A stretch of 64,000 nt of DNA, taken from contig NZ_CP029287.2 in the NCBI RefSeq assembly GCF_003201675.2, forward strand, positions 930,001-994,000, written 5' to 3'. The notes below the pieces were generated by a model. That model saw nothing but the letters and a program-made list of their open reading frames with translations, was not told where the DNA came from and made no database searches. Made by a program: the position numbers and the translations under genes. Every line of letters starts with the position of its first letter. Position 1 is the first letter of the stretch. Source of the stretch: Metallosphaera hakonensis JCM 8857 = DSM 7519 (GTDB lineage: Archaea; Thermoproteota; Thermoprotei_A; Sulfolobales; Sulfolobaceae). Positions 23,306 through 30,246 of this stretch are shown in pieces.

Positions 23306-23310
23306 CGCTA

Positions 23311-24056
23311 GTATTTCCGAAAAGTTTAAAACGTTCTGTAATGATTTAGAAGAATGGAAAATTTAGTAGAGGCTTACGAGAGGGAGAAGGACGTCAAGGT
23401 GAGGGAGAGGATACTAGCAGTCAAGATGCACGTAGTGGACGGGATGAGGGAGGTGGAGGTCGCGAAGGTCCTCAACAAGGGTTACTCCACGGTGAGGACG
23501 TGGGTGAGGAAGTTCAGGAAGGGAGGGGTAGAGGCCCTCAGGGATAGGCCCAGGTCCGGGAGGCCCAGAAAGGCCGGGAAGGAGGATGTGAAGAGGGTCC
23601 TAGAGGACGGGCCCAGGAACTACGGGATCGAGCAGGACTTCTGGACGGTCAAGGCGCTCAAGGTTGTACTCCTGAAGAGGGGAGTGGAGTACAGGAAGTC
23701 CAGGTTGTACGAGCTGGTCCACGAGCTCGGGTACGAGCTGGTGACGCCCAGGCCCACCAACATGAAGGCTGAAAGGGAGAAGTGGGACGATTTTAAAAAA
23801 AGTGAAGGAGTTGGCAGACGAAGCGGTGTACTTCTTCGACGAGTGCAGGGCCGTGATCAGCACCCTGGTGAAAAGAGTCCTGGCGAGACGAGGGAGTAAA
23901 CCAGTCCTCAGGGTCAACACGGGCTTCTCCTCGACCTACGTCCTCCTCGCTGTTAATGCGTGGACAGGGGAGGTCGTGTTCACAGTTGCTGACAGGCCCA
24001 ACTCCGAGTCCGTGAAGTACTTCCTGCGCTACTTCAAGAGGAGGGTTGGGAAAGGT
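23311..24056 (+). mobile_element. IS630-type element, truncated on the right
   Basis: The left end gtatttccgaaaagtttaaa follows a TA dinucleotide (23309-23310), the target expected for IS630/Tc1. About 100 bp from this end match the right half of the MITE at 26639-26860. No matching right end is present; the sequence runs into the IS256-type element near 24057. Confidence 0.8.
23354..24056 (+). pseudogene. IS630-family transposase, frameshifted and truncated
   Basis: Frame 1 encodes an N-terminal helix-turn-helix region (R-I-L-A-V-K-M-H ... S-T-V-R-T-W-V-R-K-F-R-K-G-G) up to about residue 150. At the A7 run near 23795 the reading moves to the next frame (+1), which gives K-E-L-A-D-E-A-V-Y-F-F-D-E-C with the first catalytic Asp of the DDE domain, and continues to V-G-K-G. 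The second Asp and the Glu are missing because the gene is cut off near 24056. Slippage on the A run could restore the frame, but the truncation makes it inactive. Confidence 0.8.
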
Positions 24057-25377
24057 GGGGCTACCAGTTATAGTTGTGGTAGCCAAAGGTGAAAAATAAT
24101 GTCGAAAAGTAAAAATAACCCCGGAAGGGGTAATATAAGGGAGGGTAATACCATGAAGGCAAGGGAGGAAGTGAGGGAGACCATAAGGAAGGCAGTCAAC
24201 GAAAGAGTCAGCCTAAGGGAGATCGAGGAGATGATATTGCAGGAAACCATGATGGAGGAGAGGGAAGCGTATCTTGAAGTTGAGGACGACGAGAAGAACG
24301 GGACGTACTTCAGGTATCTGGGCACTGGAAACGGGGTGTTGAGGCTCAGGGTACCGAGGACCAGGAAGGGTGGATTCAGGCCGAAGATCCTCCCCGAGAA
24401 GTACGAGAGGATGGACCAGGGCTACGAGGAGTTCCTCCAGGGACTTGTCCTTTCTGGGATGACTCCAGGTCAGGTTAAGGCTGTTCTCGCAAAGGGTATA
24501 CCGTACAGTGAAGTGGTGATGGACCGCGTCGCGGAGAGGATATCCAACAAGCTCAGGGAGTTCAAGAGCCGCGAACTACCTCACGACCTCCTTGCGCTCT
24601 ACGTGGACGTGAAGTTCGTTAAGGTCAGGATCAACGAGGCCATTGTGGAGAGAGCGGTTTACATCATAGGAGTTGACCTTGATGGCAACAAGTCCGTGCT
24701 GGACTACGAGGTCAGGGATAGGGAGGACCTGGACGGTTGGAAGTCCTTCTTGGGAGGTCTAGTGAGCAGGGGAGTCAGCAGAGTAGACGTAATCGTAAGC
24801 GACGACTTCTCGGGTCTGGATCGCGTCGTGTCCACTCTCTTTCCCTCCTCCCAACATCAGCTCTGCATAACCCACTTGATCAGGAACCTCATGAGGGTTC
24901 TTCCTGACAAGGAGAAGGACGAGCTGATGGCTAGGGTTAGGGACCTCAAGTCCTCGAGGAACGTTGAGGAGGGAAAGAAGGCAATCTCGTCCCTCAGTCA
25001 ACTCGTTGAACCCTTCTCTCCAGCTCGCGCCAAGAGGCTTCTAGACGCTGCTGATAGGTACTGCGCCTTCCTCAACTTCCCCAGGGAAGTCAGGCACTAC
25101 CTATACACCAACAACACGTCAGAGAGCTTCAACTCGACCTTAGCCAGGTTCGAGGAGGAGCTGAAGTTACTTCCCCTCCCTTCGCTCCCTGCAGGTCTAC
25201 CTCTACGTCTCCATCGAGGAGAGCAACTCACGTTGGAAGTCGAGGCCCATGTCGGTGATAAGGCATCACTCCTATCACCTGAAACAGCTCCACGCCTCCA
25301 GGTTCCAGGTGAGCTTTGATGAAGACTTTTAAGCTAGTGCTTATATATTTTCTTACACATCTATACCCGGTAGCCCC
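24057..25377 (+). mobile_element. IS256-type insertion sequence, about 1.3 kb
   Basis: Terminal repeats: left ggggctaccagttatagttg; right, as reverse complement, ggggctaccgggtatagatg. They match at 19 of 22 positions. I see no matching target duplication. The left end falls in IS630 transposase sequence and the right end falls in a TnpB-tail relic, so later rearrangement is likely. A related truncated copy is at 61370-62305. Confidence 0.75.
24099..25332 (+). pseudogene. IS256/mutator-family transposase with a late frameshift
   Basis: The first ~355 residues are a good mutator-type transposase: L-A-L-Y-V-D-V-K-F-V (first catalytic Asp), V-I-V-S-D-D-F-S-G-L (second Asp), C-I-T-H-L-I-R-N-L-M and N-N-T-S-E-S-F-N-S-T-L (C-terminal Glu/Asn block). 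Around 25170-25180 (a ttcccctccc run) the frame breaks. The correct ending is in another frame (L-Q-V-Y-L-Y-V-S-I-E-E ... V-S-F-D-E-D-F) with a stop at 25330-25332, while the open frame ends at 25319 with an unrelated tail. One base appears to be inserted, so the transposase is probably inactive. Confidence 0.85.
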
Positions 25378-26314: not shown

Positions 26315-26638
26315 GAAAAGATTTCCGTGACCTAGTGACCTACATTGGGTAAATCCTTAAACTACTCTGTTCGGGTTATTCATACAGTTTACTGTATTTT
26401 TAATCTTAATTAAGATATTTAAATGAATAATTTTTGGTCTATGATAATGTACTGGGGGTAGAACTTCGCGGGATGGCTCAAGGCTGGATTGATCATGATC
26501 TCGCAGTTTCCCATTTTGAACCATTAGCTGAGGCGCAAACGTAACGTATTTGTTCTCAGTCTAACCAAGTAGTCTCGGCAAAATCTATCACGTTCAAGAC
26601 CATCATGAGAGTATAAGTAGATTGCGTGGCATGAGATA
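26315..26638. other. Non-coding gap
   Basis: A+T-rich sequence upstream of the hydrolase gene; no gene or further repeat was recognised before the MITE at 26639. Confidence 0.4.
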
Positions 26639-26860
26639 GTATTTCCGGAAAGTTATGAACACTCAATTTTATCTAGCCCCAAGTATTTTGGGACTATCAA
26701 TTATAGTTGCGTATTTTACCTGAAATCGACGTTTCTTACACATCTATACTCGGAAGCCTCATTCTCCCTCACCTTAACGTCCTTTTCCATCTCGCAAGCC
26801 CCTACTAAATTTTCCATTCTTCTAGATCATTACAGAATGTTTTAAACTTTTCGGAAGTAC
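26639..26860 (-). mobile_element. IS630-derived MITE, 222 bp, with nested mini-element
   Basis: The ends are gtatttccggaaagttatga and, reverse-complemented from the right, gtacttccgaaaagtttaaa, flanked by TA on both sides. On the minus strand the right half matches the first ~100 bp of the IS630-type element at 23311, including the transposase start region. The centre (26691-26760) is a separate 70-bp unit with IS256-like ends. Confidence 0.8.
26691..26760 (+). mobile_element. 70-bp mini-element with IS256-type ends, nested in the MITE
   Basis: The left end ggactatcaattatagttgc and right end cacatctatactcggaagcc match the termini of the IS256-type element (24057-25377). The interior is only about 25 bp and does not match the transposase. 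A sister copy is at 28270-28338. Confidence 0.6.
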
Positions 26861-26957
26861 TAGGGAGTTGTTTGTTTCCGTCTTCATTGACTTAATCCTC
26901 CTACCCGCAAGTCCCATTCACGCAAACCTAAAATAATTCCGAGACTAGAGAATATCA

Positions 26958-28079
26958 ATGGAATTGTCAGTTTATAACATGGTCATCGATGGAGAGTTAG
27001 AGATTAAGAATGTTCAAAAATTTTTGAATAAATTAATGATAGCCGTTAACACACTTTCTCAAGTTCATGATGCTGAACCATTCAAATCTCTTTATGAGAA
27101 ATATCACGGTGAGTTGAAAGGGATTGATGAATTAAGAGATAAAGACCCCGCGTTATATGCTTCTTATCTGTTCCATAGAATGTTTGATGATTACCTTAAT
27201 AACGGAAAATTAAAGGGTTTACTTGACGAAATCAGCAAGATTAAGCTTGATAAGAAAAGAATGATATCACTCATGGGAGTTAAGGACAAGGTAGAAGCCG
27301 AGAATGTGGTGGAATCATTGTCATACACCGTTTGGACTTTTGAGACCTCAAATCCTCTCGATCTATTGAAAAAGCTTGATTCAAGTATCGATAGAGATAT
27401 TGAGATAGGATACATGGGGTTGAAAGTGTATCTAGTCGTGAAACCCTCTCCTGACGAGTTAGGATCATATGAGTCTTACATTTTTTTCACTAAGAATAAC
27501 CCGAGGATAGGAGTAGAAGTTGGTGAGATCTCCATAGACCCCTATGAAGTGACAATCGTCCTGTTTGATGAGGGTATGAAATCACTTATGTTGTCCATCA
27601 TAGAAAAAATTTTTGGTAAATCGACCTTAAAATTAAAGAAGAAGTCAAAGGTTAACAATCCCTCAGAGTTCATAAGTACAGGATTCCTAATAAAGATGTT
27701 GAGGTATACCCATTGGGCTTTGAATAACTCAAAGCTGTCTTTAAGTGAAGCAGTGAACTATTTACCCCTTATTCTTGGAGTTATTAATAGGCCGAAGCGA
27801 ACCATCAAGGAGTTAACAAAAATGCATGACGAATTTGTGGAGTATGGACTTAATTTAGATCTAGTTAAAAACGAACTTCAAAATCTAGGTTGGTATAATA
27901 TAGAATTACCAAATAACTCGATAAGGGTCATTGAAATGGGTGATAAAAGATTTAAGAAATTCCTTACCATGTCCGAGAGATTTGGAGAACCCGATACTTT
28001 ACTCTTATTTCTGATGGTTTCCGCAATGTTTGTTTACGAGATCAATGGTCTTGATTACAAACAATTATTTCAATTTTAA
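26958..28079 (+). CDS. Hypothetical protein, 373 aa, in the IS-rich zone
   Basis: I do not recognise this gene. The protein is helix-rich and Lys/Ile/Asn-rich, encoded by clearly A+T-richer sequence than neighbouring metabolic genes. The N-terminal ~130 residues are helical, a beta-rich middle (residues ~150-210) follows, and the C-terminus is helical with M-L-R-Y-T-H-W-A-L-N. It stands alone between two IS-derived elements, which suggests horizontal acquisition. Confidence 0.7.
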   Translation: MELSVYNMVIDGELEIKNVQKFLNKLMIAVNTLSQVHDAEPFKSLYEKYHGELKGIDELRDKDPALYASYLFHRMFDDYLNNGKLKGLLDEISKIKLDKKRMISLMGVKDKVEAENVVESLSYTVWTFETSNPLDLLKKLDSSIDRDIEIGYMGLKVYLVVKPSPDELGSYESYIFFTKNNPRIGVEVGEISIDPYEVTIVLFDEGMKSLMLSIIEKIFGKSTLKLKKKSKVNNPSEFISTGFLIKMLRYTHWALNNSKLSLSEAVNYLPLILGVINRPKRTIKELTKMHDEFVEYGLNLDLVKNELQNLGWYNIELPNNSIRVIEMGDKRFKKFLTMSERFGEPDTLLLFLMVSAMFVYEINGLDYKQLFQF

Positions 28080-28240: not shown

Positions 28241-28338
28241 AGTATTTCCAGTAAATATTTATCCTAAGAGGACTACCGGCTATAGTTGTGTATTTCACCT
28301 AAAAATTACCTTTCTTACACATCTATACAGGTAAGCCT
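28241..28338. mobile_element. Decayed IS630-end plus 69-bp IS256-type mini-element
   Basis: TA-gtatttcc at 28239-28249 resembles the IS630 end. It is followed by a mini-element from ggactaccggctatagttgt (28270) to ctatacaggtaagcc (28338). The order mirrors the nested unit at 26639-26760, so this may be a second, more degraded composite. Confidence 0.55.
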
Positions 28339-28713
28339 CATCCTAAGCACCTCTGGTCGCTACCTAAGAACTTATCAGAAACACTAGTGTATGTCCCTGA
28401 TCTTGGTCGTAGCAGTGACAAGAGTCATTAAGTTACCTAGATTGAGACGTGGATTCGTTTGGTGAGCCTGTGCTCTTAATAATGTCGCAGGACCCCGGAA
28501 TTTTAACCCTCAACTTCACGTTAACGAGAGGGGTAGATGAGAGATGGCAAAGACTTGGGGAGGGATGCGGTTCCCATCCGACAAGTTGGCATAGGTTTGC
28601 ATTACACATCCTGGCTATGAGCTAGGCATGACTCTTGAATGACTCTTGAACTTCAAACTTCCTTAGTAACGCATCCTACGATCTCTTTGTTGTTTCAATC
28701 TTCATAAAGTGTA
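28339..28713. other. Non-coding gap
   Basis: No gene or clear repeat recognised between the mini-element and the small gene at 28714. Confidence 0.4.
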
Positions 28714-29022: not shown

Positions 29023-30246
29023 ATGGAAGACCTGGAAATTTCCAATGAGAAGCTCAGGTTAGGCTTTACCTTTGACCATAACAAATGTATCATATGCGGA
29101 GCTTGCGTGGAAGCGTGCAATAAAGCGTATGGGGGAAATTGGAGAGTCCTACCAGTTTTCGAATTGGGTGAGGCAAAGACCGCGCTCTCCATATCGTGCA
29201 ACCATTGCGATAACCCAGTGTGCCTGAAGTCCTGTCCGGCGCTGGCCATATCCAAGGATGAGAGAGGTATAGTAGCCATAGATCAGGACAAATGCATTGG
29301 CTGCAGTTACTGCCAATGGGCTTGTCCCTACGAGGCTCTGCATCTCTCCAAGGAGGGAACCATGACGAAGTGCCATCTATGTAAGGATAGACTTGGAAAC
29401 GGAATGCCGTACTGCGTAGAGAGTTGTCCCACGGGAGCGTTAACTTTCGGATGGCTTGATAAGCCTGACGGAGACGTAAACTATCTGGCCCCTCCAACCA
29501 TAACCTCTCCGAGGCTCAAAATTAACCCTCCCAAAGAGGAAATAAGGGCCTCTCCCATCAAAGAGAAGAAAGAGGAGAGGGCTCTAGGGCTAATTTCCTT
29601 TACTTTGGGAAGCGAGATTGCACTGGCTTATTCGTTATTTAAGATGCCTTACTTCCAGGTCGTATCATTTCTCTTGTTGGCGATTACACTTCTCATTTCC
29701 ATCGGTCACGCTCGAGTGTCAACTAGGTCCCTCAGGGTAATCCTTAACCAGTCCACTTCCTGGCTCAGCCGGGAAGTTTTGTTCGGTGGATTGGGATCAA
29801 TCACTTTTCTGATTGATGCCCTATTCAACAGAGATTTCCTATATTACCTGGCGCTCATTTTCACAGTGGTAGCTGTTGCCTCGTCAATCATGATTTACAT
29901 GCTTAAATCTCGGCCGTCCTGGTACAACCTGGATACACCAGTGTCGTTCATTGGAACAGCCTTCACTGTGGTGACCCCCCTTGTCTATCTCTTCTCCCAT
30001 CAACCCCTTGCCCTAATCCTGGGTGGTGCATTTGCTCTCCTTGAGATCTTCAGTGCCAGGAGGAAGGCGACCATGGGATTCAAGGATAGGAGGATCTTGA
30101 ATATAGCCTATATTGTTCTACTCTTGGCTGGACTTCTGATACCCTACCTCGAATTGGTAGCTTTCGGCTTAGCTTTAGCATCAGAGGTAATTCACAGACG
30201 TGAGTTCTTTCAAAAAGTAATATATTATGGCGTGCCGGGAGTTTAA
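29023..30246 (+). CDS. DmsB-DmsC fusion: iron-sulfur protein with membrane anchor
   Basis: A 407-residue fusion. Residues ~15-155 carry sixteen Cys in four groups (C-I-I-C-G-A-C-V-E-A-C; C-N-H-C-D-N-P-V-C-L-K-S-C; C-I-G-C-S-Y-C-Q-W-A-C; C-H-L-C ... C-V-E-S-C), the layout of DmsB-type proteins with four [4Fe-4S] clusters. Residues ~185-407 hold about eight membrane helices with the DmsC signature H-A-R-V-S-T-R-S-L-R and T-S-W-L-S-R-E-V. The anchor exchanges electrons with quinone. No molybdopterin catalytic subunit is nearby; instead a 2-oxoacid oxidoreductase operon follows 50 bp downstream. Confidence 0.9.
   Translation: MEDLEISNEKLRLGFTFDHNKCIICGACVEACNKAYGGNWRVLPVFELGEAKTALSISCNHCDNPVCLKSCPALAISKDERGIVAIDQDKCIGCSYCQWACPYEALHLSKEGTMTKCHLCKDRLGNGMPYCVESCPTGALTFGWLDKPDGDVNYLAPPTITSPRLKINPPKEEIRASPIKEKKEERALGLISFTLGSEIALAYSLFKMPYFQVVSFLLLAITLLISIGHARVSTRSLRVILNQSTSWLSREVLFGGLGSITFLIDALFNRDFLYYLALIFTVVAVASSIMIYMLKSRPSWYNLDTPVSFIGTAFTVVTPLVYLFSHQPLALILGGAFALLEIFSARRKATMGFKDRRILNIAYIVLLLAGLLIPYLELVAFGLALASEVIHRREFFQKVIYYGVPGV

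Follow-up and report, generated by a model that had tools for sequence, protein, structure and literature searches.

Which transposase moves a unit that bears the ends of two insertion sequence families is the question raised by this locus, a 226-bp stretch within the 64-kb window (the whole stretch of DNA that was analysed) of a genome represented by one contig of 2,544,115 bp. A preliminary description had proposed an IS630-derived MITE with an IS256-type mini-element inside it, and this nested structure was borne out, with exact bounds now set for both the outer and the inner unit (Table 1). The composite is non-coding and without a complete transposase gene. Its ends form an inverted repeat (28 nt, 79% complementary), the IS630 right part includes the transposase start codon and first codons on the minus strand, and two bases, AT, separate the inner unit from this right part. 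We hold with high confidence that this is a non-autonomous MITE for which the 1,049-bp IS630-family element of the same genome supplies the transposase, that its inner 71 bp are a passenger, and that it uses a non-TA target; it would have formed by capture followed by adjacent deletion. Movement driven by IS630 is argued for by the presence of both IS630 ends, nine dispersed copies, target duplications at seven of these and empty sites for five.

Table 1 Coordinates of the composite MITE and related elements in the 64-kb window
Feature	Position	Strand	Detail
Composite MITE, 226 bp	26637..26862	+	Ends TAGTATTTCC...GGAAGTACTA; genome-wide copies 96–100% identical
Left 53 bp of the 1,049-bp IS630-family element	26637..26689	+	92–100% match to the IS630 left end
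Inner 71-bp mini-element with IS256-type ends	26690..26760	+	59/71 positions equal the consensus of free mini-elements
Right 100 bp of the IS630 element	26763..26862	+	92–95% match to the IS630 right end
Copy of the parent IS630 with right end and 5' part of transposase	23309..24056	+	98% match to IS630 query positions 310–1063
Full IS256-family element, 1.32 kb	24057..25377	+	Likely autonomous partner of the inner mini-element
Free IS256-type mini-element (28269–28339)	28261..28347	+	8-bp ATCCTAAG repeated at 28261–28268 and 28340–28347

The composite has moved as one unit

Nine full copies of the composite were found genome-wide (40 of 96 candidates scored), and the inner unit and both junctions were identical in all nine. 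No outer MITE lacking the inner unit was present among these nine full copies from the same 40 scored candidates. Because both junctions are common to 9/9 copies, a single capture was followed by movement of the composite as one IS630-type unit; that the two units had come together repeatedly and independently was rejected on the same ground. Among the 31 genomes of the family searched, the composite was present only in the source genome.

The suggestion that the composite itself had moved was further upheld by the insertion sites. When flanking dinucleotides were read with the element ends set at TAG...CTA, perfect 2-bp target duplications were observed at seven of the nine composites: AC at L002, L003 and L004, GT at L005 and L007, GC at L006 and CC at L009. 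The copy in the window (L001) had unequal flanks (GA/GG), as did L008 (GT/AC). Empty target sites, aligned without gaps and with the dinucleotide present once, were recovered for five composites. L004 was inserted within another IS630 copy, and in the four full IS630 copies this site is intact (...GTCAACACGGGC...): a single AC stands where the insertion occurred, and TA is absent there. With this site already known, a search for paralogues covered the remaining eight composites. The joined flanks of L003, L005 and L009 equalled intact paralogues at 80/80 bases and those of L006 aligned without gaps to a diverged paralogue; the search returned no empty site for L001. Joining the flanks also regained long reading frames in five of the nine composites. 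One of these frames is an IS630 transposase and the others were judged by eye to be transposases; taken as such, they indicate that the composite often lands in other insertion sequences.

The high identity of the nine copies (96–100%) could also be expected if they were segmental duplications of one locus and not products of transposition. However, the flanks differ from copy to copy, and both the duplications and the empty sites stop exactly at the element ends. Segmental duplication is refuted by these unrelated flanks, and we give it virtually no probability.

The left arm of L008 and the left end of the full IS630 element share 100% identity, and one full IS630 copy (L061) has the same unequal flanks, GT/AC, as L008. 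This pattern suggests that recombination between copies may lie behind the flanks of both.

The parent IS630 element and its transposase

Four full copies of the parent element (L061–L064) occur in the genome. The copy at 23309–24056, whose product is an IS630 transposase, is cut off by the IS256 element. The second reading frame of the transposase matched NF033545 above cut-off (134.8 bits), and the transposase of this clade is of the DD34E type, with the second D and the E separated by 34 residues (a count made by eye on the alignment). In all four full copies a run of seven A (GATTTTAAAAAAAGTG) divides the transposase between two overlapping frames, which suggests programmed frameshifting; given the split in 4/4 copies, frameshifting would be needed for activity.

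Two further observations were made on this clade. In G007, split transposase copies occur together with copies that are open over 331 aa. L165 of G014, a unit that measures 761 bp and has this clade's ends and unequal flanks, is probably another deletion derivative.

The parent clade inserts at C-RY-G

Choice of TA as target is regarded as a defining mark of the IS630/Tc1/mariner superfamily and of the tools derived from it. The preliminary description had read the composite as TA-flanked. This did not hold for the target duplication: the TA pairs at the outer ends are part of the element, and the composites are flanked by duplicated AC, GT, GC or CC.

We extended the reading of flanks to full elements of the same clade in the source genome, G007 (44% amino-acid identity), G013 and G014 (65–66%). 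Forty-eight loci were examined and one (L166), for which both ends were not found, was left out. A perfect 2-bp duplication was present in 39 of the resulting 47 insertions from four genomes, against ~3 expected by chance, although these insertions are partly non-independent (L122 and L133 of G007 occupy one site in similar sequence, and the left flank of L136 is also that of L137). By group, perfect duplications were found in 7/9 composites, 3/4 full elements of the source genome, 20/22 insertions in G007, 3/4 in G013 and 6/8 in G014. The duplicated dinucleotides were AC (14), GT (14), GC (6), CC (2), GG (2) and CG (1), with TA in none of the 39; C preceded the dinucleotide in 38/39 and G followed it in 37/39, giving the target C-RY-G, with RY for most of the dinucleotides. 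Flanks were unequal in the other eight insertions, in seven of which C still stood before and G still after the element; L001, the copy in the window and also one of the eight, has A before it. Recombination between copies would fit these unequal flanks.

Empty sites were likewise sought for G007, where 16 of the 22 loci were entered and seven were aligned, four of them in G007 and three in the same-genus genome G008. Together with the five from the source genome, 12 empty sites matched the joined flanks without gaps and showed a non-TA dinucleotide at the insertion point.

As controls, 11 IS630 copies of other groups (23–26% identical to the clade member of the source genome) were tried, and the search pattern located no ends for two of them (L208 and L209). 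All nine others, eight in G014 and one in the source genome, had TA on both sides. One of them, L203, had an empty site with a single TA, and L202 gave further ungapped matches (as table rows only).

These data bear on whether the non-TA duplications might be an artefact of ends placed two bases off, with TA as the true target. In favour of that reading, the element does begin with TA and end with TA. The 12 ungapped empty sites nevertheless show a non-TA dinucleotide, and the same procedure yielded TA for the other IS630 groups (9/9 with ends found, one with an empty site). A true TA target with misplaced ends is thus refuted by the empty sites and is extremely unlikely. More distant haloarchaeal and bacterial relatives (34–37% identity; four plasmid records) yielded no convincing element ends, and for the named relatives of the IS630 transposase 111 pattern matches among genome contigs gave none that was confirmed.

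We consider it likely that a Sulfolobaceae IS630 clade switched from TA to C-RY-G as its target and retained the 2-bp stagger and the DD34E transposase, that TA is now the tip of the element, that IS630 groups of the same genomes still use TA, and that this clade moves the composite MITE. The C-RY-G target of the parent clade is a more surprising result than the nested MITE.

The inner unit is a passenger

The inner unit matched the ends of the full IS256-family element at 18/23 positions on the left and 26/29 on the right (copy at 26690–26760). Its 18-base right-end motif occurred 57 times in the genome at ≤2 mismatches, the reversed control giving no occurrence. Assigned by position, nine of these lay in composites, five in full IS256-family elements and 43 elsewhere. 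Flank analysis of the mini-elements comprised 30 rows, from which three composites were removed, leaving 27 distinct free mini-elements. Direct repeats of 7–9 bp, as expected for IS256-type transposition, flanked 18 of these 27. The inner 71-bp unit is a copy of this separate mini-element family, carried as a passenger.

The full IS256-family element at 24057–25377 is one of five full copies in the genome. Its transposase (24099–25319, 406 aa) matched NF033543 with 236.7 bits, and it is the likely autonomous partner of the inner mini-element. No target duplication was found at this copy; another of the five (L089) has an 8-bp duplication, AGCAGGTC.

The bearing of the IS256-type ends on movement of the composite was a central point of the preliminary description, according to which either transposase could mobilise it. 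Given the match of the inner ends to the full IS256 element, its transposase may still be able to act on the inner 71 bp. These ends, however, enclose only the 71 bp, which the IS256 transposase would be expected to move alone, and every perfect duplication at the composite edges (7/9) is of 2 bp. No 7–9 bp duplication was found at the edges of the inner unit when looked for, and the TATCAATT stretch of the composite was absent from all 27 free mini-elements examined, so there is no sign of the inner unit having left the composite. Dual mobilisation, in which the composite moves or moved through its IS256-type ends, was rejected on the 71 bp enclosed and the 2-bp edge duplications, and we regard it as very unlikely; movement by the IS630 transposase is preferred.

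The 28.2-kb site

A similar order of ends had also been noted at 28241–28338. This comparison stood in part: an IS256-type mini-element is indeed present (28269–28339), and no composite is. The mini-element is free, with its own 8-bp duplication, and the AGTATTTCC at 28241 sits outside this duplication. The 9-mer AGTATTTCC occurs five times in the 64-kb window, against 0.97 expected; once the two that are true IS630 ends are set aside, three remain, and the occurrence at 28241 is best read as chance. No IS630 right end was found near the mini-element, and a second composite at this site was rejected.

Origin of the composite

Three steps would account for the composite. An IS256-type mini-element would have inserted into an IS630 copy. 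A deletion would then have removed ~0.9 kb of the IS630 interior to one side of it, along with one of the two copies of the IS256-type target duplication; this is what an adjacent deletion that begins at the end of the mini-element should produce. The IS630 transposase would finally have multiplied the shortened element. The occurrence of the first step is seen at L210 (G000:C1:1848000–1850200), where an IS630 copy of another group (1848596–1849533, TA-flanked) contains a free mini-element flanked by a 9-bp duplication, TGAATTCTG. For the second, the IS256 element at 24057 adjoins the IS630 copy cut there (23309–24056) with no duplication between them, as if an event analogous to the adjacent deletion had occurred. 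Because of the extra AT between the inner unit and the right part, the deletion model falls short of proof at the level of single bases.

The same fusion of a full IS256 element to an IS630 remnant in the window would also agree with the inner unit being an internal deletion of a full IS256 element that had inserted in IS630, and not a ready-made mini-element. Against this, the likeness of the inner unit to the free mini-elements extends through their middle and not just their ends (59/71 positions of the consensus). No longer intermediate with the same junctions was seen in the searches of the source genome (40/96 and 40/87 candidates scored). Internal deletion is improbable compared with capture of a mini-element that already existed.

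Relation to known elements

The composite and its parent resemble IS630/Tc1/mariner insertion sequences and their MITEs in the NF033545 match, DD34E, terminal inverted repeats, a 2-bp duplication and MITEs derived by deletion. They differ in duplicating AC, GT or GC (with few CC, GG or CG) and TA in 0/39, and in carrying a passenger mini-element of another family in the middle. The composite is a variant, not a typical member, of the IS630-derived MITEs, because its target duplication is not TA. With IS256-family elements and their derived mini-elements the inner unit shares both ends; the free copies have 7–9 bp duplications, whereas the copy in the composite has none and gives no sign of movement of its own.

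In PMC8533490, members of the superfamily are described as recognising and duplicating TA, and most Sailor elements as using TATA. Like the Sulfolobus MITEs SM3A and SMN1 (PMC3718332), the composite is non-coding, moved in trans by an insertion sequence transposase, and found in the Sulfolobales. SM3A and SMN1 have different parents (ISC1058 and ISC1733), and the accessible part of that account mentions no nested second mini-element. Nested elements are mentioned elsewhere as Russian dolls (PMC3852290). Integration of Sleeping Beauty at non-TA sites (PMC5801840, PMC7987939) is a comparable use of such sites by a Tc1/mariner-type transposase; those events are of low frequency, asymmetric and mainly aberrant, whereas here non-TA insertion is the rule, at a symmetric C-RY-G and with clean duplications. 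The open literature searched, including the accessible parts of PMC2246112 and PMC7827188, yielded no account of this composite or of an IS630 clade with a C-RY-G target, with ISfinder and most subscription literature outside the scope of the search.

If the change of target is true, a C-RY-G clade exists beside TA-using relatives in the same cells and target choice becomes testable by comparison and domain swaps, with natural pairs for mapping it available within the same genomes. One MITE can carry the mini-element of another family through many rounds of transposition, and the proposed origin suggests that new MITEs can arise from deletions next to an IS256-type end.

Neighbouring reading frames

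Between the two mini-elements of the window lies a 373-aa reading frame (26958–28079) for which neither Pfam nor NCBIfam gave a match at E 0.001. Further downstream, a 407-aa protein (29023–30246) has an N-terminal 4Fe-4S part like subunit B of DMSO reductase and a weak DmsC-like anchor part, and is possibly a fusion.
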